Positions 1 to 53,675 of a stretch of 64,000 nucleotides of DNA are shown piece after piece. Made by a program: the position numbers and the translations under genes. A model generated the notes under the pieces. That model was not told the origin of the DNA. It was given only the letters and a program-made list of their open reading frames with translations, and ran no database searches. Origin of the DNA: Branchiostoma floridae (Eukaryota > Chordata > Leptocardii > Amphioxiformes > Branchiostomatidae); NCBI RefSeq assembly GCF_000003815.2, contig NC_049985.1, forward strand, positions 2,548,970-2,612,969, in the 5' to 3' direction. The stretch's first letter is position 1. Each line of letters begins with the position of its first letter.

Positions 1-275
1 TCTAACTTCCTAACGTAGTGGAGGTACACTACTAGTATAACGGTTACATGTGTAGCCTCCTTGGTACAGTACAGTACAGTATAGTATGGTATAGTAGTGC
101 ACGGTACAGTACAATACAGTAGTGTTTAGTAGAAAAAACTACAGTAGTGTATACTGTGTATAGTATTTGTAGAGTAGAGACAAGTGCAGAGCACAGGACA
201 GCATAGTTGTGTTGGGAAGCATACTACATAGACTACAGTAGGCCAGTGTAGAGTACAATATAGTAGAGAGCAGTA
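1..275. repeat. Low-complexity TAC/AGT-rich tract
   Basis: The stretch is built from short degenerate repeats of GTACA, GTATA and TAGTA, densest at 60-130. A shorter tract of the same flavour lies at about 10780-10855, in the equivalent place upstream of ZNF-D. It therefore belongs to the duplicated 5' region of the zinc-finger genes. I see no gene in it. Confidence 0.6.
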
Positions 276-280
276 GTCTT

Positions 281-401
281 ATGTCTTTGTACCCGCCTCC
301 CTTCAGGAATTCACAAAAAGGTTTTTGTACTTTTGACGGTGCCAGAAATAGCTGTGATGCATATTGATAGTGATACAATTCCAAAGGATAGCAAGCCCAG
401 G
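281..401 (+). other. Conserved block upstream of ZNF-A (possible 5' exon, donor lost)
   Basis: This block opens with ATGTCTTTGTACCC and recurs upstream of ZNF-D (10925-11018) and ZNF-E (17048-17180). In those copies it ends at a good splice donor (CCAGG followed by GTATGT). Here the matching position reads ATATGT, so the donor dinucleotide is lost. The short frame that opens at ATG is not conserved among copies because indels shift it, so a non-coding 5' exon is likelier than a coding one. ZNF-C has no copy. Confidence 0.4.
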
Positions 402-435
402 ATATGTGTTTCGTGCATGTATGCTGCAGGCCAGA

Positions 436-599
436 CCGTGAGGTCGGCGCTTCTTCCACATGTATTAGTTCTAGAATTACCACAGTTATCCATGTAGGAT
501 GTGACGATCAAAGGAACCATAACTGATTTAATGAGCCATTCGCAGTTTTACTGAGGCAGTTTAAACTTATACGTGCATGGCTTAATCTTGAGACAAGCA
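436..599 (-). pseudogene. Fragment of 18S rRNA 5' region (degraded)
   Basis: Read on the minus strand, the stretch follows the first part of eukaryotic small-subunit rRNA. It includes near-exact runs such as CATGGATAACTGTGGTAAT and TAATACATG, plus the segment before them that includes CTTGTCTCAAG. The matching plus-strand runs are TGATTTAATGAGCCATTCGC and AATTACCACAGTTATCCATG. Several substitutions and small indels, together with its length of about 165 bp, show a fossil rather than a functional gene. It interrupts sequence that is continuous upstream of ZNF-D (around 11035-11045), and TGTATGCT occurs at both junctions. Confidence 0.85.
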
Positions 600-4712: not shown

Positions 4713-5277
4713 GTAAGGTAGAGAATGTTACTGACTTACCGTGACTTGATTTTGTCCCAAAGAAATGCTATCTTTTCACCTTACGGCTACTCGGACTACA
4801 TCGTATTAGAAGCCTAACCTCATGGGGGAGGGGGGCGAATGTTTTTCTTCTATTTTTTATGATTTTCAATGTCGCAAGTGGGCTGAAAAACTCTCTGTTC
4901 ATCTCTACGGCTAGCAAGTATATCTTTATGATATGTCATAATAAGGGTATAACAGGCGCAGCCTACTTCACCTAGACATCATCAAGGTATCAAGGTAAAG
5001 TAATAATTCCATGTCATATTTTTCATATGATATCTACTATGTACATGTATATTGCATGTTTTTCAGTGGTAGTAAAATCGGTAATTTTCTATATTTGGTG
5101 TTTCAAGCTAGCAAGTGGACTGTAGAAGAACTCTATGTTCATCTCTACAGCTAGCATTAGTACATCCTTATTATATGTTATAACATTGCATTATTATATT
5201 CAAGTATATGTACAAGATCAAATTAGAAATTGCCACAATGCTGAATGTGATTTATTTGTCAAATGGTTATCTTTCAG
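4713..5277 (+). other. 5' intron of ZNF-C
   Basis: It begins at GTAAGG and ends TTTCAG. From 4850 on it matches 640-1062. An insertion of about 48 bp at about 4951-4999 (GCGCAGCCTACTTCACC...) is absent from the ZNF-A copy. It lacks the conserved block found upstream of A, D and E. Confidence 0.5.
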
Positions 5278-5293
5278 ATAAGTGAAGGAAGGG

Positions 5294-6814
5294 ATGGCTG
5301 ATTCCAACCTTGGGGGTCATGAACAAGAACATTCCAGTGAGAAACCCTACATGTGTGGGGAGTGTGGATACAGGACTGCTCGTAAGTCTCACTTATCCCA
5401 ACATATGAGAATACACACTGGAGAGAAACCCTACAAGTGTGACCTGTGCGACTATTCTTCAGCCCAGAAATCCAACTTGGACTGCCATCTAGCTAAACAC
5501 ACCGGTGAGAAACCCTACATGTGTGGGGAGTGTGGCTACAGAACTGCTTATAAGTCTCACTTATCCCAACATATGAGAAGACACACTGGAGAGAAACCTT
5601 ACATGTGTGGGGAGTGTGGATACTGGACGGCTCATAAGTCTGCCTTATCCCAACATATGAAAACTCATACTGGAGAGAAACCCTACAAGTGTGACCAGTG
5701 TGACTATTCTGCAGCACGGAAATCCACTTTAGATAGCCATCGAGTAAAGCACACCGGTGAGAAACCCTACATGTGTGGGGAGTGTGGATACTGGACGGCT
5801 CATAAGTCTGCCTTATCCCAACATATGAAAACTCATACTGGAGAGAAACCCTACAAGTGTGACCAGTGTGACTATTCTGCAGCACGGAAATCCGCTTTAG
5901 ACAGCCATCGAGTAAAGCACACCGGTGAGAAACCCTACATGTGTGGGGAGTGTGGTTACTTGACATCTAGTAGGTCTTCCTTATCCAAACATATGAGAAC
6001 TCATACAGGGGAGAAACCCTATAAGTGTGACATGTGTGACTATTCTGCAGCCCGAAAATTCGCATTGAACAGCCATCGACTAAAACACACCGGTGAGAAA
6101 CCCTACATGTGTGGGGAGTGTGGATACAGGATGGCCCATAAGTCTGCCTTATCCCAGCATATGAGAATTCATACAGGAGAAAAACCCTACAAATGTGACA
6201 TGTGTGACTATTCTGCAGCACACAAATGTAGTTTGGAGAACCATCTAGCTAAACACACAGGTGAGAAACCCTACATGTGTGGGGAGTGTGGATACAGGAC
6301 GGTTGAGAAGTCTGCATTATCCAGACATATGAGAACTCATACAGGAGAGAAACCTTACAAGTGTGACCAGTGTGACTATGCTGCAACCCGGAAATTCCAG
6401 TTGGAAAGCCATCGATTAAAACACACTGGTGAGAAACCCTACATGTGTGGGGAGTGTGGGTACAGGACTGTTCAGAAGTCAACCTTATCCAAACACATGA
6501 GGACTCATACAGGAGAGAAACCTTACAGGTGTGACTTGTGTGACCATTCTACAGCACAGAAATCCAGTTTGGATATGCACCGAGTAAAACACACCGATGA
6601 GAAACCCTACATGTGTGGGGAGTGTGGATACAGGGCAGCTCATAAGTCTTGCTTATCTAAACACATGAAGTCTCATATGGAGGGAAAATACAAATGTGAC
6701 CAGTGTGACTACTCTACTGGGAAAAAATGGGTTTTGGACTGCCATCGACTAAAACACACTCGTCAGGTGACAAGCCCTACATGTGTGGGTAGTGTGGGTA
6801 CAGGACAGCTGTGA
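5294..6814 (+). CDS. C2H2 zinc-finger protein ZNF-C, 17 fingers, 506 aa
   Basis: Single coding exon behind the acceptor at 5276-5277; the first ATG gives M-A-D-S-N-L. After an acidic 17-residue leader the whole protein is zinc fingers: 17 in tandem, all C-x2-C-x12-H-x3-H, with TGEKP linkers. Fingers mostly alternate between a CGECGY type and a CDxCDY type. The usual core aromatic (fourth residue after the second Cys) is Thr, Ala, Met or Ser, and a Tyr two residues after that Cys probably takes its place. Fingers 4-5 and 6-7 (5605-5772 and 5773-5940) are almost identical, which shows a recent 168-bp duplication. The C-terminal tail after the last His ([19 protein letters not shown]) is a former finger read out of frame. 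Likely a sequence-specific nuclear DNA-binding protein; target and partners cannot be read from the sequence. Confidence 0.93.
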   Translation: MADSNLGGHEQEHSSEKPYMCGECGYRTARKSHLSQHMRIHTGEKPYKCDLCDYSSAQKSNLDCHLAKHTGEKPYMCGECGYRTAYKSHLSQHMRRHTGEKPYMCGECGYWTAHKSALSQHMKTHTGEKPYKCDQCDYSAARKSTLDSHRVKHTGEKPYMCGECGYWTAHKSALSQHMKTHTGEKPYKCDQCDYSAARKSALDSHRVKHTGEKPYMCGECGYLTSSRSSLSKHMRTHTGEKPYKCDMCDYSAARKFALNSHRLKHTGEKPYMCGECGYRMAHKSALSQHMRIHTGEKPYKCDMCDYSAAHKCSLENHLAKHTGEKPYMCGECGYRTVEKSALSRHMRTHTGEKPYKCDQCDYAATRKFQLESHRLKHTGEKPYMCGECGYRTVQKSTLSKHMRTHTGEKPYRCDLCDHSTAQKSSLDMHRVKHTDEKPYMCGECGYRAAHKSCLSKHMKSHMEGKYKCDQCDYSTGKKWVLDCHRLKHTRQVTSPTCVGSVGTGQL

Positions 6815-7400
6815 GGTCTAACATATACCAACAGATGAGAACTCAAATGGGAGGAAAACCCTACAAGTGTGACCAGTGTGAGAAAAAGCCTTTGATTACA
6901 GAGTAGCAAAACCTTTTTGTCACATTAAATTTGTGAATAGGACTAGCATCACAAAGAAGATCTAGATATATAAGATACATTTGTATTGTCAGATTTATGA
7001 AGACGTGAAAAAATATCTTAAGGTATGAAGCATACATAAATAAATAAATAAATAAATACATGTAAGTATGTGCAAGGAAAAAGAAATCGACATTTGAAAG
7101 AATTCTGCATGATATGATAAATTGTTACAACGAATGACATGATATTGCATTATATTGCTAGTGGTTTGGTAATATGTTTATACTAGAATGCAGTTTTGTA
7201 TAACTGCAGTTGCAATAAGGGGATCACAAGGAAGTACCGGTGGGGATATGACCACAATGATACGTGAAACAGATAAATACAATTTTATGTTCCCTGCCGA
7301 TTCTTGGTTTGTCACCAGTGAAAGATGGTGTTCACCATGTTAACATCATTAAAGAACAGACAAACCGTACTTGGGATGTTCTTTTTTTTATTTCTTGTGA
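6815..7400 (+). other. 3' UTR of ZNF-C, fossil finger, ATTAAA signal
   Basis: The first 80 bases still resemble finger coding in another frame (GGGTACAGGACAGC, then AAACCCTACAAGTGTGACC). The region then follows the 3' flanks of ZNF-B and ZNF-D. It contains an (AATA)n run at 7037-7060 and the poly(A) signal ATTAAA at 7348-7353, within a shared CATCATTAAAGAACAGACAA. Confidence 0.55.
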
Positions 7401-8699: not shown

Positions 8700-9126
8700 T
8701 CGTGCCCCACGACGTATGTCTATGATTCTCAAACTGACAACATACAATTGATGAATCGCTGGGAAAAATGATGCCCCACGACGTATATGTAACGTTATGT
8801 CTATGATTCTCAAACTGACAACATACAATAATTGACGAATTGCTGGGAAAAATGATGCCCCACGACGTATGTCTATGATTCTCAAACTGACAACATACAA
8901 TTGACGAATCGCTGGGAAAAATGATGCCCCACGACGTATAAACGTTATGTCTATGATTCTCAAACTGACAACATACAATAATTGACGAATTGCTGGGAAA
9001 AATGATGCCCCACGACGTATGTCTATGATTCTCAAACTGACAACATACAATAATTGACGAATTGCTGGGAAAAATGATGCCCCACGACGTATGTCTATGA
9101 TTCTCAAACTGACAACATACATCAGT
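8700..9126. repeat. Left-arm minisatellite of the foldback element
   Basis: Six units of 69 to 81 bp, each with TGCCCCACGACGTAT, GATTCTCAAACTGACAACAT and a variable link that may include TAACGTTATA-like or ATA insertions. It is the inverse of the right-arm array but half as long. Confidence 0.85.
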
Positions 9127-9744: not shown

Positions 9745-10610
9745 TCAGATGCGTCAATTGTATGTTGTCAGTTTGAGAATCATAGACATACGTCGTGGGG
9801 CATCATTTTTCCCAGCAATTCGTCAATTGTATGTTGTCAGTTTGAGAATCATAGACATACGTCGTGGGGCATCAGTTTTCCCAGCAATTCGTCAATTATT
9901 GTATGTTGTCAGTTTGAGAATCATAGACATAACGTTTATACGTCGTGGGGCATCATTTTTCCCAGCAATTCGTCAATTGTATGTTGTCAGTTTGAGAATC
10001 ATAGACATACGTCGTGGGGCATCATTTTTCCCAGCGATTCGTCAATTATTGTATGTTGTCAGTTTGAGAATCATAGACATAACGTTTATACGTCGTGGGG
10101 CATCATTTTTCCCAGCGATTCGTCAATTGTATGTTGTCAGTTTGAGAATCATAGACATACGTCGTGGGGCATCGTTTTTCCCAGCGATTCGTCAATTGTA
10201 TGTTGTCAGTTTGAGAATCATAGACATGCGTCGTGGGGCATCATTTTTCCCAGCGATTCGTCAATTATTGTATGTTGTCAGTTTGAGAATCATAGACATA
10301 ACGTTTATACGTCGTGGGGCATCATTTTTCCCAGCGATTCGTCAATTGTATGTTGTCAGTTTGAGAATCATAGACATACGTCGTGGGGCATCGTTTTTCC
10401 CAGCGATTCGTCAATTGTATGTTGTCAGTTTGAGAATCATAGACATGCGTCGTGGGGCATCATTTTTCCCAGCGATTCGTCAATTATTGTATGTTGTCAG
10501 TTTGAGAATCATAGACATAACGTTTATACGTCGTGGGGCATCATTTTTCCCAGCGATTCGTCAATTGTATGTTGTCAGTTTGAGAATCATAGACATACGT
10601 CGTGGGGCAC
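9745..10610. repeat. Right-arm minisatellite with higher-order structure
   Basis: Twelve units of 69 bp (plus 3 or 12 bp in variants), each with TATGTTGTCAGTTTGAGAAT and TCGTGGGGCATC. From about 10086 to 10526 a block of three units (about 220 bp, 69+69+81) is repeated nearly exactly, so this arm grew recently by copying a three-unit block. Confidence 0.85.
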
Positions 10611-11197: not shown

Positions 11198-12142
11198 ATG
11201 GCTGATTCTGAGGTTGGAGGTCAGGAACAAGAGCAGACCAGTGAAAAACCCTACATGTGTGTGGAGTGTGGGTACAGAGCTGTTCTGAAAACTAACTTGG
11301 ACAGACATATAAGGACTCACACTGGAGAGAAACCCTTCAAGTGTGACCAGTGTGACTTTTCTGCGGCACAGAAATCAAGTTTAGACATTCATCAACGAAA
11401 ACACACAGGTGAGAAACCCTACATGTGTGGGGAGTGTGGGTACAGAACTGCTAAGAAGTCTCACTTGTCCCGACATATGAAAACTCACACTGGAGAGAAA
11501 CATTTCAAGTGTGACCTGTGTGACTATTCTGCAGCTGTGAAATCCAATTTGAAAAGACATCGACGAAAACACACCGGTGAGAAACCCTACATGTGTGATG
11601 AGTGCGGATACAGAACAGTTGAGAAGTCTACCTTATCCATACATATAAAAACTCATACTGGAGAGAAACCCTACAAGTGTGACCTGTGTGACTTTTCTGC
11701 AGCCGTAAAATCTAATTTGAACAGACATCAATTAAAACATACTGGAGAGAAACCCTACATGTGTGGGGAGTGTGGATACAGGACTGTTCAGAAGTCAACC
11801 TTATCCAGACACATGAGGACTCATACAGGAGAGAAACCTTACAGGTGTGACTTGTGTGACCATTCTACAGCACAGAAATCCAGTTTGGACAGTCATCAAG
11901 TAAAACACACCAATGAGAAACCCTACATGTGTGGGGAGTGTGGATACAGGGCAGCTCATAAGTCTTGCTTATCTAAACACATGAAGTCACATATGGAGGG
12001 AAAATACAAATGTGACCAATGCGACTACTCTACTGTGAAAAAATGGGTTCTGGACTGCCATCGACTGAAACACACTCGTCAGGTGGCAAGCCCTACTAGT
12101 AGTAGTACATGTGTGGGGAGTGTGGGTACAGGACAGATGTGA
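11198..12142 (+). CDS. C2H2 zinc-finger protein ZNF-D, 10 fingers, 314 aa
   Basis: Single coding exon after the acceptor at 11180-11181; the first ATG gives M-A-D-S-E-V. Ten complete C2H2 fingers alternate strictly between CxECGY and CDxCD(Y/F/H) types. Linkers are TGEKP, with TGEKH and TNEKP variants. Fingers 7-10 and the tail are almost the same as fingers 14-17 of ZNF-C, while fingers 1-6 are more diverged. This suggests that array ends are exchanged or copied between neighbours. The tail [14 protein letters not shown]... carries a short TAG/TAC expansion relative to ZNF-B and C. Probable nuclear DNA-binding protein without an accessory domain; binding site unknown. Confidence 0.93.
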
Positions 12143-12660
12143 GGTCTGACTTATCCCAACAGATGAGAACTCAAATAGTAGGAAAATCCTACAAGTGTGA
12201 CCAGTTTGAGAAAAGGACTTTGATTTCAGTGTAGGAGAACCTTTTTGCCACATTGAATATATGAATAGAACAAGCATCACAATCTGGATCTAGATATACG
12301 AGACATTATCAGATTTATAAAGAAGTGAAAAATTATCTACTGAAGTTAAAGTATGTGCTAGAAAAAAGGAACGAACATTTGAAAGTATTCTGTATCAAAT
12401 GATAAATTGTATGTTAGATAGAATGACATGATATTGCATTAATATGATTGCAGGGGTATGGTAATATGTTGACTACAATGCAGTTATGTATAGATGAACT
12501 GCAGGGTTGCGATAAGGGGATCGCAAGGAAGTACCAGTGAGGATATGAACGCAATGATACATGATACAAATCAATACAAATTGTATATTCCCTGCCGCCT
12601 ATCCTTGGTTTGTCACCAGTGGAAGATGGTGTGCATAGTGTTAACATCATTAAAGAACAG
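12143..12660 (+). other. 3' UTR of ZNF-D, fossil finger, ATTAAA signal
   Basis: Follows the same plan as the flanks of ZNF-B and C: a trace of finger sequence (GTGAGGTCTGACTTATCCCA), the shared 3' block, then ATTAAA at 12649-12654. No other gene is seen. Confidence 0.55.
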
Positions 12661-17726: not shown

Positions 17727-19712
17727 ATGGCTGATTCCAACTTTGGAAGTCACGGACAAGGAAAGACCCGTAAGAAACCCTACATTTGTGGGGAGTGTGG
17801 GTACAGAGCTGCTTATAAGTGTCACTTATCCCTACATATGAGAAGACACACTGGAGAGAAACCTTACCTGTGCGAAGAGTGTGGGCACAGAACTGCTAAC
17901 AAGAAAGACTTATCTCAACATATGAGAACTCACACTGGAGAGAAACCCTACAAGTGTGACCTGTGTGACTATTCTGCAGCACAGAAATCCACTTTGAACA
18001 TTCATCGACGAAAACACACTGGTGAGAAACCCTACATGTGTGGAGAGTGTGGGTACAGGATGGCTCATAAGTCTGCCTTATCCTTACACATGAGAACTCA
18101 CACAGGAGAGAAACCCTACAAGTGTGACCAGTGTGACTATTCTGCAGCACAAAAATTAAATTTGGACATCCATCTAGCTAAACACACTGGAGACAAACCC
18201 TACATGTGTGGGGATTGTGGCTATCGAACAGTCAATAGGTCTCATTTATCCAGACATATGGGAACTCACACTAGAGAGAAACCCTTCAGTTGTGACCTGT
18301 GTGACTATTCTGCAGCCCGGAAATCCACTTTGACCAACCATCTACGAAAACATGCTGGTGAGAAACCCTACATGTGTGGGGAGTGTGGGTACAGGGCAGT
18401 TAGGAAGTCTCACTTATCCCTACATCTGAGAACTCATACAAGAGAAAAACCCTACAAATGTGACCTGTGTGACTATTCTGCAGCCCAGAAACCCAATTTG
18501 GATATGCACCGAGTAAAACACACTGATGAGAAACCCTACATGTGTGGAGATTGTGGGTACAGGGCAGCTATGAAGTGTACCTTATCCCAACATATGAAAA
18601 CTCATACTGGAGAGAAACCCTACAAGTGTGATCTGTGTGACTATTCTGCAGCTGTGAAATCCAATTTGAAAAGACATCAATTAAAACACACCGGTGAGAA
18701 ACCCTACATGTGTGGGGAGTGTGGACACAGGACGGTTGAGAAGTCTGCATTATCCATACATATGAGAACTCATACAGGGGAGAAACCCTACAAGTGTGAC
18801 CTGTGTGACTATTCTGCAGCAGGGAGATCAGCTTTGAACATTCATCGACAAAAACACACATGTGAGAAACCCTACATGTGTGGAGAATGTGGGTACAGCA
18901 CTGCTCATAAGTTTGCCTTGGACAAACATATGAAAACTCATACTGGAGAGAAACATTACAAGTGTGACCTGTGTGACTATTCTGCAGCTGTGAAATCCAA
19001 TTTGAAAAGACATCAATTAAAACACACCGGTGAGAAACCCTTCATATGTGGGGAGTGTGGATACAGGACGGTTGAGAAGTCTGCATTATCCATACATATG
19101 AGAACTCATACAGGGGAGAAACCCTACAAGTGTGACCTGTGTGACTATTCTGCAGCAGGGAAATCAGCTTTGAACATTCATCGCCGAAAACACACATGTG
19201 AGAAACCCTACATGTGTGGAGAATGTGGGTACAGCACTGCTCATAAGTTTGCCTTGGACAAACATATGAAAACTCATACTGGAGAGAAACATTACAAGTG
19301 TGACCTGTGTCACTATTTCACAGCAGTGAAATCCAATTTAAAAAGACATCAATTAAAACACACAGGTGAGAAACCCTACATGTGTGATGAGTGTGGATAC
19401 AGGGCGGTTGAGAAGTCTGACTTAATCAGACACATTAGAACTCATACAGGCGAGAAACCCTACAAGTGTGACCAGTGTGACTATTCTGCAGCACAGAAAT
19501 CCGCTTTGAACTTTCATCGAAGAAAACACACTGATGAGAAACCCCACATGTGTGGGGAGTGTGGGTACAGGACAGCTCAAAAGTCTACCTTATCACAACA
19601 TATGAAAACTCATACAGGGGCAAAACCCTACAACTACAAGTGTGACCAGTGTGACTATTCTGCAGCACGGAAATACCATTTGGACAGGCATCGACTAAAT
19701 CACACTAGTTAG
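17727..19712 (+). CDS. C2H2 zinc-finger protein ZNF-E, 23 fingers, 661 aa
   Basis: Largest of the cluster. Single coding exon after the acceptor at 17709-17710; the first ATG gives M-A-D-S-N-F. After a basic leader of about 17 residues (GQGKTRKK) there are 23 C2H2 fingers, C-x2-C-x12-H-x3-H, the last with a two-residue longer entry (YNYKC). Types alternate CGxCGY and CDxCDY except for fingers 1 and 2. Fingers 11-14 and 15-18 (about 18622-18957 and 18958-19293) are near-identical, a recent 336-bp duplication. In finger 19 CDLCDY has become CDLCHY and the Ser-Ala pair is Phe-Thr. The stop TAG at 19710-19712 falls right after the last His plus Thr-Ser, and finger-like text continues behind it. 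Probable nuclear DNA-binding protein; target unknown. Confidence 0.93.
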   Translation: MADSNFGSHGQGKTRKKPYICGECGYRAAYKCHLSLHMRRHTGEKPYLCEECGHRTANKKDLSQHMRTHTGEKPYKCDLCDYSAAQKSTLNIHRRKHTGEKPYMCGECGYRMAHKSALSLHMRTHTGEKPYKCDQCDYSAAQKLNLDIHLAKHTGDKPYMCGDCGYRTVNRSHLSRHMGTHTREKPFSCDLCDYSAARKSTLTNHLRKHAGEKPYMCGECGYRAVRKSHLSLHLRTHTREKPYKCDLCDYSAAQKPNLDMHRVKHTDEKPYMCGDCGYRAAMKCTLSQHMKTHTGEKPYKCDLCDYSAAVKSNLKRHQLKHTGEKPYMCGECGHRTVEKSALSIHMRTHTGEKPYKCDLCDYSAAGRSALNIHRQKHTCEKPYMCGECGYSTAHKFALDKHMKTHTGEKHYKCDLCDYSAAVKSNLKRHQLKHTGEKPFICGECGYRTVEKSALSIHMRTHTGEKPYKCDLCDYSAAGKSALNIHRRKHTCEKPYMCGECGYSTAHKFALDKHMKTHTGEKHYKCDLCHYFTAVKSNLKRHQLKHTGEKPYMCDECGYRAVEKSDLIRHIRTHTGEKPYKCDQCDYSAAQKSALNFHRRKHTDEKPHMCGECGYRTAQKSTLSQHMKTHTGAKPYNYKCDQCDYSAARKYHLDRHRLNHTS

Positions 19713-19856
19713 AAATCCTACATGTGCAAGTTAGCTTTAGGTCGGATTCACAACTGTCAAGAAGTCTGACTTATCCAGACACATGAGAACTTGTACACAA
19801 GAGAAACCCTTCAAACCAGTGTGACCTATGTAGCTTTTCTGCAGCACAGAAAAATA
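19713..19856 (+). pseudogene. Decayed fingers after ZNF-E stop
   Basis: The sequence keeps recognisable finger text (CCTACATGTGCAAG, AAGTCTGACTTATCCAGACA, then GAGAAACCCTTCAAACCAGT) but with several stops and indels. It breaks off inside a CDxCDY-type finger at the TA target of the MITE 19857-20294 and resumes at 20297. Confidence 0.75.
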
Positions 19857-27382: not shown

Positions 27383-27448
27383 CTTGTAGTTTTCTCTCTG
27401 CATCTGTCCTGGCGTTCCTCTCCACTTCCAGCTCTTGTGAGAGACTTT
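27383..27448 (-). CDS. Dach: Dach exon: end of DachBox-C coiled coil
   Basis: 22 codons, 66 bp, between the acceptor TTTCCATGGTTACAG and the donor GTAAGAAA, phase 1 on both sides. It encodes ESLSQELEVERNARTDAER followed by K-L-Q. Vertebrate Dach has an equally placed segment ending GGRTDAERTIQ (from memory of the family). Highly charged and helical in character, it continues the coiled coil. Confidence 0.85.
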
Positions 27449-36536: not shown

Positions 36537-36895
36537 ACCATTGAGAACCCTAAAACTGTCAGAGGATGCAGCATATAGGCTACCTCACGGATAAAGGCTA
36601 ACTAGCTTTACAGACAACAGAAACGTACCGTTGAGAACCCTGAGACTGTCTGATGACGTCTGTTTGATACCTGGATGTAGCAACATATGTGTTACCTCAC
36701 AGACAAAGGTGGACTAGCTTTACGTACCGTTGAGAACCCTAACATTGTCAGAGACTGTCTGTTTGACGCCGTCCTCGGCCTGGATACCGCAGCACATAGG
36801 TTACCTCACGGATAAAGGCAAACTAGCTTTACAGACAACAGAAACGTACCGTTGAGAACCCTGAGACTGTCAGAGGACATCTGTTTGACAGTGGC
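36537..36895 (-). repeat. Four tandem copies of the 3' edge and donor of Dach exon 36943-37083
   Basis: On the minus strand, exon-like ends at 36850, 36728, 36629 and 36539 repeat the last 30 to 60 coding bases of the real exon (coding KQTSSDSLRVLN or variants). Each is followed by intron text with AAGCTAG. The donor GTACGT is kept in the copies ending 36850, 36728 and 36629; the fourth has GTTCAG. Spacing is 90 to 122 bp. Confidence 0.85.
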
Positions 36896-36942
36896 ATATG
36901 GGTTACCTCGCGGATAAAGGCAACCTAGCTTTACAAACGTAC

Positions 36943-37083
36943 CGTTGAGAACCCTGAGACTGTCTGAAGATGTCTGTTTGACTCCGTCCTCGGCCTGGAT
37001 GCGTCGGCGCTGCTCCTGCTCCAGCTGCTCCAGCATTTTCCTCTTGGCCTTCTTCTCCTTCTTCAGCCTCTTCTGTAGGACAG
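36943..37083 (-). CDS. Dach: Dach exon: basic coiled-coil core of DachBox-C
   Basis: 141 bp, acceptor TTTTCCCTGTCAG, donor AACG then GTACGTTT, phase 1 at both ends. It encodes A-V then LQKRLKKEKKAKRKMLEQL, a Gln/Glu/Arg-rich helix, and KQTSSDSLRVLN. This is the most conserved stretch of Dach proteins; the vertebrate counterpart contains QKRLKKEKKAKRKLQ and ends DSLRVLN. The exon is unusual in being flanked by partial copies of itself: acceptor-side copies at 37197-37540 and donor-side copies at 36537-36895. Confidence 0.93.
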
Positions 37084-37196
37084 CTGACAGGGAAAAGGGA
37101 AACATTGTCAGGATAAACACCTATGTTTAAAGGTCTCAGAACACATACAAGGGTTTACATGGTTAAGGACCCAGTGAGGAGGGTTGATGCCCCAAA

Positions 37197-37540
37197 CTTG
37201 GCCTTCTTCTCCTTCTTCAGCCTCTTCTGCAGGACAGCTGATGGGGAAAGGGCAACATCGTCAGGATAAACATACATGTATTATAAGGTCTCAGAACACA
37301 GTTTTTCATCTACAGGAGTTTAAGACCCAGTGAGGATGGTCGATGTCTCAAATTTCGCCGCCTTCTCCTTCTTCAGCCTCTTCTGCAGGACAGCTGACGG
37401 GGAAAAAGGGCAACATTGTCAGGATAAACACGTATATTATAAGGTCTCAAGTCTCAGAACACAGTTTTTCACCTACAGGAGTTTACAGTGAGGAGGGTCG
37501 ATGCCCCAAACTAGGTCTTCTTTTCCAGGACAGCTGATAG
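37197..37540 (-). repeat. Three tandem copies of the 5' edge and acceptor of Dach exon 36943-37083
   Basis: Acceptor-like TTTCCCCATCAG, TTTCCCCGTCAG and TTTTCCCTATCAG are followed by exon starts at 37237, 37393 and 37533. The first two repeat about 40 bases of coding sequence (VLQKRLKKEKK), the third about 20. The following bases no longer match the exon and no good donor follows. Spacing is 140 to 156 bp. Confidence 0.85.
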
Positions 37541-37769
37541 GGAAAAGGGCAACATCGTCAGGACAGTTATTTTTGTTCAAAGAATCAAACACAGTGATGT
37601 TTACTGGTTAGTTGTGAATCAACAAGTAATTGAGAAATAAAAACAAATCACTGCAACTTTAAAAAATTGACAATTCACAGGTGTTTCTTCAAGTTATCAT
37701 TTTTCATTTAACATGCTGAAGTCATACATGTTGCGATGATCTACAATTTTTGTAAATGTACACCTCCAC

Positions 37770-38079: not shown

Positions 38080-38163
38080 CTCGACTCCTCTGCTCCTCCC
38101 CCAGTTGCTTCTCCAGGGCCTCCCTGAGTTCCCGCTCTCGTAACAACTCCATCTTCAGCTCCG
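38080..38163 (-). CDS. Dach: Dach exon: DachBox-C coiled coil
   Basis: 84 bp between the acceptor CTCTGTCCTCCACAG and the donor GTATGGCC, phase 1 at both ends. It encodes A then ELKMELLRERELREALEKQ and L-G-E-E-Q-R-S-R. The vertebrate protein has ELKMxxLRERELRETLEKQL at this place. It is a strong amphipathic helix with heptad Leu, part of the region reported to bind Eya. Confidence 0.92.
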
Positions 38164-38729: not shown

Positions 38730-38915
38730 CTTTCTCCATGGTAACCTGCTTCTCCTGTTGCCGGGCGTTGTCGGCTGCGACCTTGAGTAACCCCTGGATG
38801 TTGGTGAGGAGCGTTTCCGTGGAGGAGATGTTCTCTGGCAGGAAGGGGGCCATACCAACCAGGCTCTGCATGGAGGGGTTTCCCTCCGAGTGGGAGTCCG
38901 GACTTTCTAATGAGT
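38730..38915 (-). CDS. Dach: Dach exon: start of DachBox-C
   Basis: 186 bp between the acceptor TTTTTTGTCCTCTAG and the donor GTGGGTGA, phase 1 at both ends. It encodes N-S-L-E-S-P-D-S then a short linker, PFLPENIS and TETLLTNIQGLLKVAADNA, followed by RQQEKQVTMEK. The vertebrate protein has ETLLTNIQGLLKVAxDNARAQEKQ here, an almost exact match. It marks the entry of the C-terminal conserved domain. Confidence 0.94.
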
Positions 38916-52139: not shown

Positions 52140-53675
52140 TCTTCTGATTGCCTTTTTTGCTGTATATGATTGCCGAACCTTTCTCGCACGCCGAGTCGAT
52201 CTATTACCGCCCCGTAACCAAGAAAGACCGGGAGCAATTCTTTTCTTTTCTTTCCCAATAAAAAACTTCTGCGAGAGAAAAACCTCTCCTTTTGCTGTAT
52301 ATGATTGCCGAACCTTTCTCGCACGCCGAGCCGATCTATTACCGCCCTTTAACCAAGAAAGACCGGGAGCAATTCTTTTAGTTCTCTCCCAATAAAAAAA
52401 ATTCTGCCAGAGAAAAACCTTTCCTTTTGCTTGAAGAAGATTCACTCTTTACTTCTGGATACTTTAAAAATCTTAATATTTTTTGCCGTATACGTACGAT
52501 TGCCGAACCTCTCTCGCACGCCGAGCCGATCTATTACCGCCCTATAACCAAGAAAGACCGGGAGCAATTCTTTTCTTTTCTCTCCCAATAAAAAACTTCT
52601 GCCAGAGAAAAACCTCTCCTTTTGCTATATAAGATTGCCGAACCTTTCTGGCATGCCGAGTCGATCTATTACCGCCCTATAACCAAGAAAGACCCGGAGC
52701 AATTCTTTTAGTTCTCTCCCAATAAAAAAACTTCTGCAAGAGAAAAACCTCTCCTTTTGCTGTATATGAATGCCGAACCTCTCTCGCACGCCGAGCCGAT
52801 CTATTACCACCCTATAACCAAAAAAGACCAGGAGCAATTCTTTTCTTTTCTCTCCCAATAAAAAACTTCTTCAAGAGAAAAACCTCTCCTTTTGCTGTAT
52901 ATGATTGCCGAACCCTTCTCGCACGCCGAGCCGATCTACTACCGCCCTTTAACCAAGAAAGACCGTGAGCAATTCTTTTCCTTTCTCTCCCAATAAAAAA
53001 CTTCTGGGAGAGAAAACCCTCTCCTTTTGCTATATATGATTGCCGACCCTTTCTCGCACGCCGAGCCGATCTATTACCGCCCTATAACCAAGAAAGACCA
53101 GGAGCAATTCTTTTCTTTTCTCTCCCAATAAAAAACATCTGCCAGAGAAAAACCTTTCCTTTTGCTTGAAGAAGATTCAGTCTTTACTTCTGGATACTTT
53201 AAAAATTTTAATATTTTTTGCTGTATACGTACGATTGCCGAACCTCTCTCGCACGCCAAGCCGATCTATTACCGCCCTATAACCAAGAAAGACCAGGAGC
53301 AATTCTTTTCTTTTCTCTCCCAATAAAAAACTTCTGCCAGAGAAAAACCATTCCTTTTGCTTGAAGAAGATTCACTCTTTACCTCTGGATACTTTAAAAA
53401 TTTTAATATTTTTTGCCGTATACGTACGATTGCCGAACCTCTCTCGCACGCCGAGACAATCTATTACCGCCCTTTAACCAAGAAAGACCGGGAGCAATTC
53501 TTTTCTCTTTCCCCCAATAAAAAACTTCTGCCAGAGAAAAACCTTCCCTTTTTCTGTATACGTACGATTGCTGAATCTTTCTCGCATGCCGAGCCGATCT
53601 ATTACCACCCTATAACCAAGAAAGACCGGGAGCAATTCTTTTCTGTCTCCCAATAAAAAACTTGTGCGAGAGATT
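52140..53675. repeat. Satellite-like array, about ten units of 130-200 bp
   Basis: CTCGCACGCCGAGCCGATCT (or near variants) recurs at about 52177, 52317, 52513, 52645 (CTGGCATGCCGAG), 52782, 52918, 53053, 53245, 53440 and 53580. Each is followed by ATTACCGCCCTATAACCAAG, AGACCGGGAGCAATTCTTTT and CTCCCAATAAAAAACTTCTG. Longer units carry an extra 60 bp (CTTGAAGAAGATTCACTCTT ... TTTTTTGCCGTATACGTACG). Both classes are interspersed. Confidence 0.9.

Follow-up and report, generated by a model that had tools for sequence, protein, structure and literature searches.

A 141-nt exon of what is very probably the amphioxus gene Dach is flanked on both sides by tandem copies of its own splice edges. The exon is read from the reverse strand of a 64,000-nt stretch of Branchiostoma floridae DNA (the window), and BLASTN, alignment and shuffles all reveal tandem repeats across its exon-intron borders, the hallmark of the so-called mirages of amphioxus genes. 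Judged from their sequence, the edge copies are a further case of these known mirages. We consider with high confidence that the structure arose through neutral local tandem duplication and that splicing still takes place on the 141-nt exon.

The exon and three of its neighbours are as follows, in the order of the transcript:
38730-38915, minus strand: Dach exon with TETLLTNIQGLLKVAADNARQQEKQVTMEK
38080-38163, minus strand: Dach exon just before the 141-nt exon, phase 1-1, with ELKMELLRERELREALEKQLGEEQRSR between split codons
36943-37083, minus strand: the complete Dach exon, VLQKRLKKEKKAKRKMLEQLEQEQRRRIQAEDGVKQTSSDSLRVLN, 141 nt, phase 1-1
27383-27448, minus strand: Dach exon after the 141-nt exon, about 9.5 kb downstream, with SLSQELEVERNARTDAERKLQ behind a split codon, frame continued

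The 141-nt exon is bordered by ...ccctgtcag on the acceptor side and gtacgt on the donor side; its first two bases finish a split codon and its last base opens the next one. All four exons have their phase in common and translate as one continuous frame, which reads ...TETLLTNIQGLLKVAADNARQQEKQVTMEK-AELKMELLRERELREALEKQLGEEQRSRA-VLQKRLKKEKKAKRK...SDSLRVLN-ESLSQELEVERNARTDAERKLQ when the split codons are filled. We take this joined translation to be the C-terminal coiled coil of Dach, and the stretch from QKRLKKEKKAKRK to DSLRVLN presumably corresponds to the C-terminal coiled coil of human DACH1. An exon encoding PGRPPKR near 62.6 kb of the window also agrees with Dach. A Ski_Sno (Dachbox-N) domain (PF02437, 114 bits, positions 27-109 of 109) is found 17.7 kb past the window end at C7:2630638-2630892, on the same minus strand as the Dach exons and with one TAG inside the matched stretch; the family also includes Ski and Sno, and this match is a candidate part of the same gene. 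In Pfam, the in-frame 141-nt exon matched three coiled-coil-type families at E values of 0.09-0.85, all under the curated cut-offs, and the other three exons matched no family; a PDB search returned nothing matching the exon. Because the three neighbouring exons keep the frame and the Ski_Sno domain lies on the same strand, the host gene is very probably Dach, as the first-pass annotation had proposed.

Within the window, a BLASTN search with the exon returned a single full-length match, six significant partial copies (two upstream and four downstream, E values from 7.6e-15 to 5.5e-4) and two remaining matches at E = 1. Searched against the assembly (513.4 Mb, 431 contigs; best candidates scored), the exon likewise gave one full match, five of the local partial copies and nothing outside the locus. 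The exon is hence complete only once, as had been claimed, no copy of the whole exon with both splice sites was found in the window, and an explanation by duplicated or mutually exclusive exons was discarded on the strength of this single full-length match in the window and among the best assembly candidates. The partial copies and their arrays are:
37043-37563, minus strand: upstream array (self-BLAST; TRF period 156), spacings of 140-156 nt
37237-37197, minus strand: decoy U1, acceptor plus 41 coding bases, 98% identical to the exon (BLASTN)
37393-37354, minus strand: decoy U2, acceptor plus 40 coding bases, 90% (BLASTN)
37533-37511, minus strand: decoy U3, outermost upstream copy (alignment, self-comparison of the region)
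36537-37000, minus strand: downstream array (self-BLAST, alignment), spacings of 90-122 nt
36889-36850, minus strand: decoy D1, last 40 coding bases plus an ACG/GTACGT donor, 90% (BLASTN)
36785-36728, minus strand: decoy D2, last 58 coding bases plus an ACG/GTACGT donor, 86% (BLASTN)
36667-36629, minus strand: decoy D3, last 39 coding bases plus an ACG/GTACGT donor, 95% (BLASTN)
36568-36539, minus strand: decoy D4, outermost downstream copy, diverged, donor ATG/GTTCAG (BLASTN 36568-36541, 28 nt, 86%)

Each unit of the upstream array consists of the intron end with a branch-point-like motif and pyrimidine tract, the acceptor and up to 41 coding bases, and from the coordinates the units are spaced by 154, 156 and 140 nt; self-BLAST extends this array out to 37563. 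Its outermost member, U3, comprises the first 7 coding bases, an 18-nt gap and then about 16 diverged bases, and is visible in the self-comparison and the alignment while being absent from the BLASTN matches of the exon. The downstream unit holds the last 28-58 coding bases, the donor and the intron start, at spacings of 93, 122, 99 and 90 nt, and a CAG/GTAAAG is located 6 nt beyond the D4 donor. The flanks of the exon scored 78 (upstream) and 86 (downstream) against it, compared with best values of 42 and 41 in 1000 shuffles. Beyond the outermost copies, shuffles gave no support for another intron unit in either direction, with the observed score being reached by 25, 328 and 107 of 500 shuffles upstream and by 370, 427 and 417 of 500 downstream. 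The three acceptor-edge copies starting at 37237, 37393 and 37533 and the four donor-edge copies ending at 36850, 36728, 36629 and 36539, three of them with GTACGT, are thereby confirmed. The first-pass annotation's description of two separate arrays, each having captured one splice edge, also stands: self-BLAST reported no similarity between upstream and downstream arrays at E 1e-3, so that we treat them as two. Partial copies that span both splice edges, in arrays with no reported cross-similarity, support the neutral reading.

The closest copies (D1-D3 and U1-U2) differ from each other by about 7-10% and the others by more, U3 and D4 at the outer ends being the most diverged in alignment and pairwise comparison. 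The same pattern is described for the globin mirages, where divergent outer copies are ascribed to escape from homogenisation (PMC3087553), and this parallel speaks for neutrality. D1 and D3 have a common insertion behind the donor, and the stretch spanning D0 (the real donor edge) and D1 aligns to that spanning D2 and D3 with 83% identity over 222 columns; these two features together suggest that a two-unit downstream block was itself duplicated. Misjoined haplotypes or expanded repeats could in principle mimic such arrays, and there are precedents, with BflGb6 reported as aberrantly assembled in the draft (PMC3087553) and repeat numbers in PGBD5 differing between two assembly versions (PMC3902484). 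The PGBD5 repeats were nonetheless confirmed by re-examined and new reads (PMC3902484), and the Dach copies are about 7% or more apart and ordered in two structured arrays. Given that even the closest copies differ by this much, we regard collapse or another assembly artefact as very unlikely.

All four acceptors (the real one and U1-U3) retain the CTGAC branch-point-like motif, the pyrimidine tract and CAG, and the 9-mer ACG/GTACGT is common to the real donor and D1-D3; splice signals are kept as AG in 3/3 upstream copies and as GTACGT in 3/4 downstream copies. When scored with a weight table for human donor sites, D0-D3 were equal, and 13 of the 388 GTs between 34000 and 40000 reached at least that score, so donor strength by itself fails to single out the real donor. 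With D1-D3 identical to it, the nearness of acceptor and donor, i.e., exon definition, would have to decide, and could do so. We translated the contiguous stretch of all 20 acceptor-donor pairs in the phase of the exon. The true pair is open, whereas a stop codon interrupts 18 of the 19 decoy pairs, which favours a neutral origin of the copies. Most likely 37083 is still paired with 36943 in the mRNA, the shortest acceptor-donor pair and the sole one that would yield the plain Dach sequence, and the partial copies are probably harmless and devoid of a function of their own.

The one open decoy pair is the true acceptor with D1 (234 nt, in frame), which would add the following segment:
36850-36942, minus strand: D1 extension, 93 nt, open and in frame, 31 residues that end once more in SSDSLRVLN

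Use of D1 (36850) as an alternative donor in some transcripts, which would append 31 residues repeating the SSDSLRVLN end of the exon, draws support from its open frame and from a donor 9-mer identical to the real one. In Pfam, the exon with its extension reached a best E value of 0.018, under the curated cut-offs. Against use of D1, an open in-frame stretch of 93 nt is expected by chance with a probability of roughly 1/3 x (61/64)^31, or about 0.08. Moreover, a predicted repeat-derived exon of PGBD5 lacks transcript support (PMC3902484), and the Adh3 and globin data suggest that mirages leave splicing undisturbed (PMC3087553). We therefore view use of D1 as improbable and continue to favour splicing on the 141-nt exon.

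If the decoys tuned Dach splicing, as sinks for spliceosome binding or as enhancers, their sequences would be expected to be under selection. The branch-point-like motif, pyrimidine tract and AG persisting in every copied acceptor, along with the donor in D1-D3, fit this possibility. In 13 of 16 comparisons between copies, coding and intron identity did not differ at p < 0.05 (uncorrected), and selection on the copied coding parts was dismissed for want of such a difference. Among the nine decoy-to-decoy comparisons, eight gave similar coding and intron identity (no p < 0.05), albeit over small segments with little power; within that limit, this agrees with neutral divergence. The sole exception was D1-D4 (coding above intron identity, p 0.02 uncorrected). 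Comparisons with the real exon gave higher coding than intron identity at p < 0.05 (uncorrected) in two of seven cases, namely U0-U1 (93% vs 77.5%, p 0.03) and D0-D4 (p 0.009); contrasts involving D4 mean little, as its intron part is not recognisably homologous. These values are rough for U3, whose gap was left out of the coding comparison, and for those downstream rows in which intron segments extend into the following unit. Against neutrality we count these three coding excesses (U0-U1, D0-D4 and D1-D4), the open in-frame D1 product, and the intact state of all four acceptors and D0-D3 despite divergence, which could be read as constraint. Overall, the mostly parallel divergence of decoy coding and intron parts, and the finding that local duplication covers match borders and control positions with roughly equal frequency (below), make a regulatory role of the decoys highly improbable, and neutral duplication remains our preferred reading.

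Under neutral duplication, the structure would have begun with a tandem duplication having one breakpoint within the exon and the other in the intron, an event that would have occurred independently on each side of the Dach exon. Unequal exchange or replication slippage may then have multiplied the units, followed by drift. The partial copies sit in intronic sequence, as decoy acceptors on the upstream side and as decoy donors on the downstream side.

The window is rich in local duplication, with 20 clusters outside the zinc-finger genes that amount to 11,245 bp and take up 22% of positions 20001-64000, compared with zero matches in three simulated sequences; this, too, supports a neutral origin. 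Only one of five Dach exons checked, 36943-37083, overlaps a cluster, and no local duplication is listed at exon 38080-38163. Elsewhere in the window, positions 52148-53673 hold an array of tandem repeats whose periods are 135 and 195 bp, with 90-94% matches. Arrays of a related 72-219 bp unit at 8703-9121 and 9748-10609, seemingly inverted relative to each other and with TCAGATGTTAGA-type repeats between them, are possibly a mobile element. Long C2H2 zinc-finger frames (616-2716, 4848-6881, 11234-12209 and 17738-19852; Pfam was run on one) contain tandem arrays of alternating CGECGYR and CDQCDYS fingers. At the very edge of the window, positions 1-599 (minus strand) resemble the 5' portion of eukaryotic SSU rRNA in degenerate form (model 29-299 of 1831, 62.9 bits) and seem to be a stray piece of rDNA.

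Edge copies also occur at other loci of the same assembly. We sampled 45 loci from three families (6 Ski_Sno, 9 globin and 30 of 46 G-alpha matches), some of them lying in long open frames (L007, L010 and L011 among them) so that their match borders need not be splice sites. Nine were flagged, and in eight (L009, L017, L021, L055, L069, L070, L075 and L081) a copy crosses an edge; the ninth, L059, was dropped from the edge count as its copy crosses none. A strict count gives 5/44, leaving out L055 (a 42-bp match) and L075 (a copy without aligned AG) as the weakest cases and counting L069 and L070 once as probable paralogues. Globin locus L021 has an acceptor-edge array with a period of 158 bp (TRF, 4.2 copies) and globin locus L017 one donor-edge copy at an offset of 157 bp, both agreeing in edge and period with globin mirages published from Branchiostoma floridae, an indirect sign that this cephalochordate is the likely host. 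In L009 (G000:C2:28000888), a Ski_Sno domain exon has acceptor-edge copies with a period of 118 bp, and in L081 (G000:C3:2500024), a G-alpha exon has a donor-edge array of several short copies with GTAAGT or GTGAGT. L069 and L070 (G000:C5 near 27.75 and 27.98 Mb) are two oppositely oriented G-alpha genes whose last coding exons agree in protein sequence across the matched part and whose acceptor-edge copies are arranged differently in each; they are probably paralogous copies of one exon.

A separate kinase sample (30 of 129 matches) is poorly suited to edge counts as most matches are long open frames, and yielded one flagged locus, L051. This exon (C19:9613497-9613910) has two acceptor-edge copies upstream with a period of 147 bp and two donor-edge copies downstream, at 1182-2398 of the locus (G000:C19 near 9613497). 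It resembles Dach in that both edges are copied, but its copies are less diverged (93-97% alike). By a stricter measure, in which an aligned block had to reach 15 nt to each side of a match border, 6/90 borders of the 45 loci were covered compared with 47/810 control positions (200-1000 nt away, sums over nine offsets), and 1/60 compared with 14/540 in the kinase loci; these rates are rough, as match borders only approximate splice sites. Local duplication is hence not enriched at the match borders of the sampled loci, and a lack of enrichment at edges favours neutrality. The double-edge capture in Dach is striking to the eye, yet L051 is a second example in a small sample. With the eight edge-crossing loci, five by the strict count, and the published amphioxus mirages, the rarity implied by the first-pass annotation does not hold.

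Amphioxus mirages have been published in Adh3, globins, TnC and PGBD5 (PMC3087553, PMC3902484), at 5' or 3' exon borders and with splicing apparently undisturbed (PMC3087553). In Branchiostoma floridae, the BflGb6 mirage takes in the 3' end of an intron and the 5' part of exon 2 in units of 150-160 bp, numbering 6 and 3 in two haplotypes, and the BflGb9 mirage lies at the 3' border of exon 2 with 157 bp (Ebner et al. 2010, PMC3087553). Dach resembles both globins in having an exon-intron border copied in tandem along with its splice signals, in a similar unit length and in divergent outer copies; it differs in that both edges of one exon are copied, whereas one edge is described per globin gene. 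This common anatomy, together with the matching L021 and L017, further supports the neutral reading. The Adh3 mirages (Canestro et al. 2002, as cited) are minisatellites over an exon-intron border, as in Dach, with splicing reported undisturbed, but their units measure 10-72 bp and show somatic length change. Lancelet PGBD5 has imperfect tandem repeats of 60 and 108 bp that take in splice sites (PMC3902484), like those of Dach, in a different gene and at different borders. A model of intron gain by tandem duplication (PMC3087553, Fig. 7 legend) starts from the same raw material, copied splice sites beside an exon, but the Dach exon is whole; intron gain was accordingly rejected for this locus, exon 36943-37083 being uninterrupted and no new intron visible. 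Dach is not named in the mirage descriptions covered (PMC3087553, PMC3902484), titles and abstract beginnings among the papers listed contain no report on this locus, and the term 'AmphiDach' yields no paper.

The Dach locus adds to the published amphioxus mirages a developmental regulator in which both edges of one exon are affected, and the sampled loci in three families provide a rough rate of edge copies for the assembly (8/45, or 5/44 strictly). It also calls for caution when genes are predicted in amphioxus. With one exon surrounded by four acceptors that are similar and four donors that are identical, the locus offers a natural test of how the spliceosome chooses a pair. If D1 were in use, a conserved developmental regulator would be receiving new protein sequence from a by-product of mutation.
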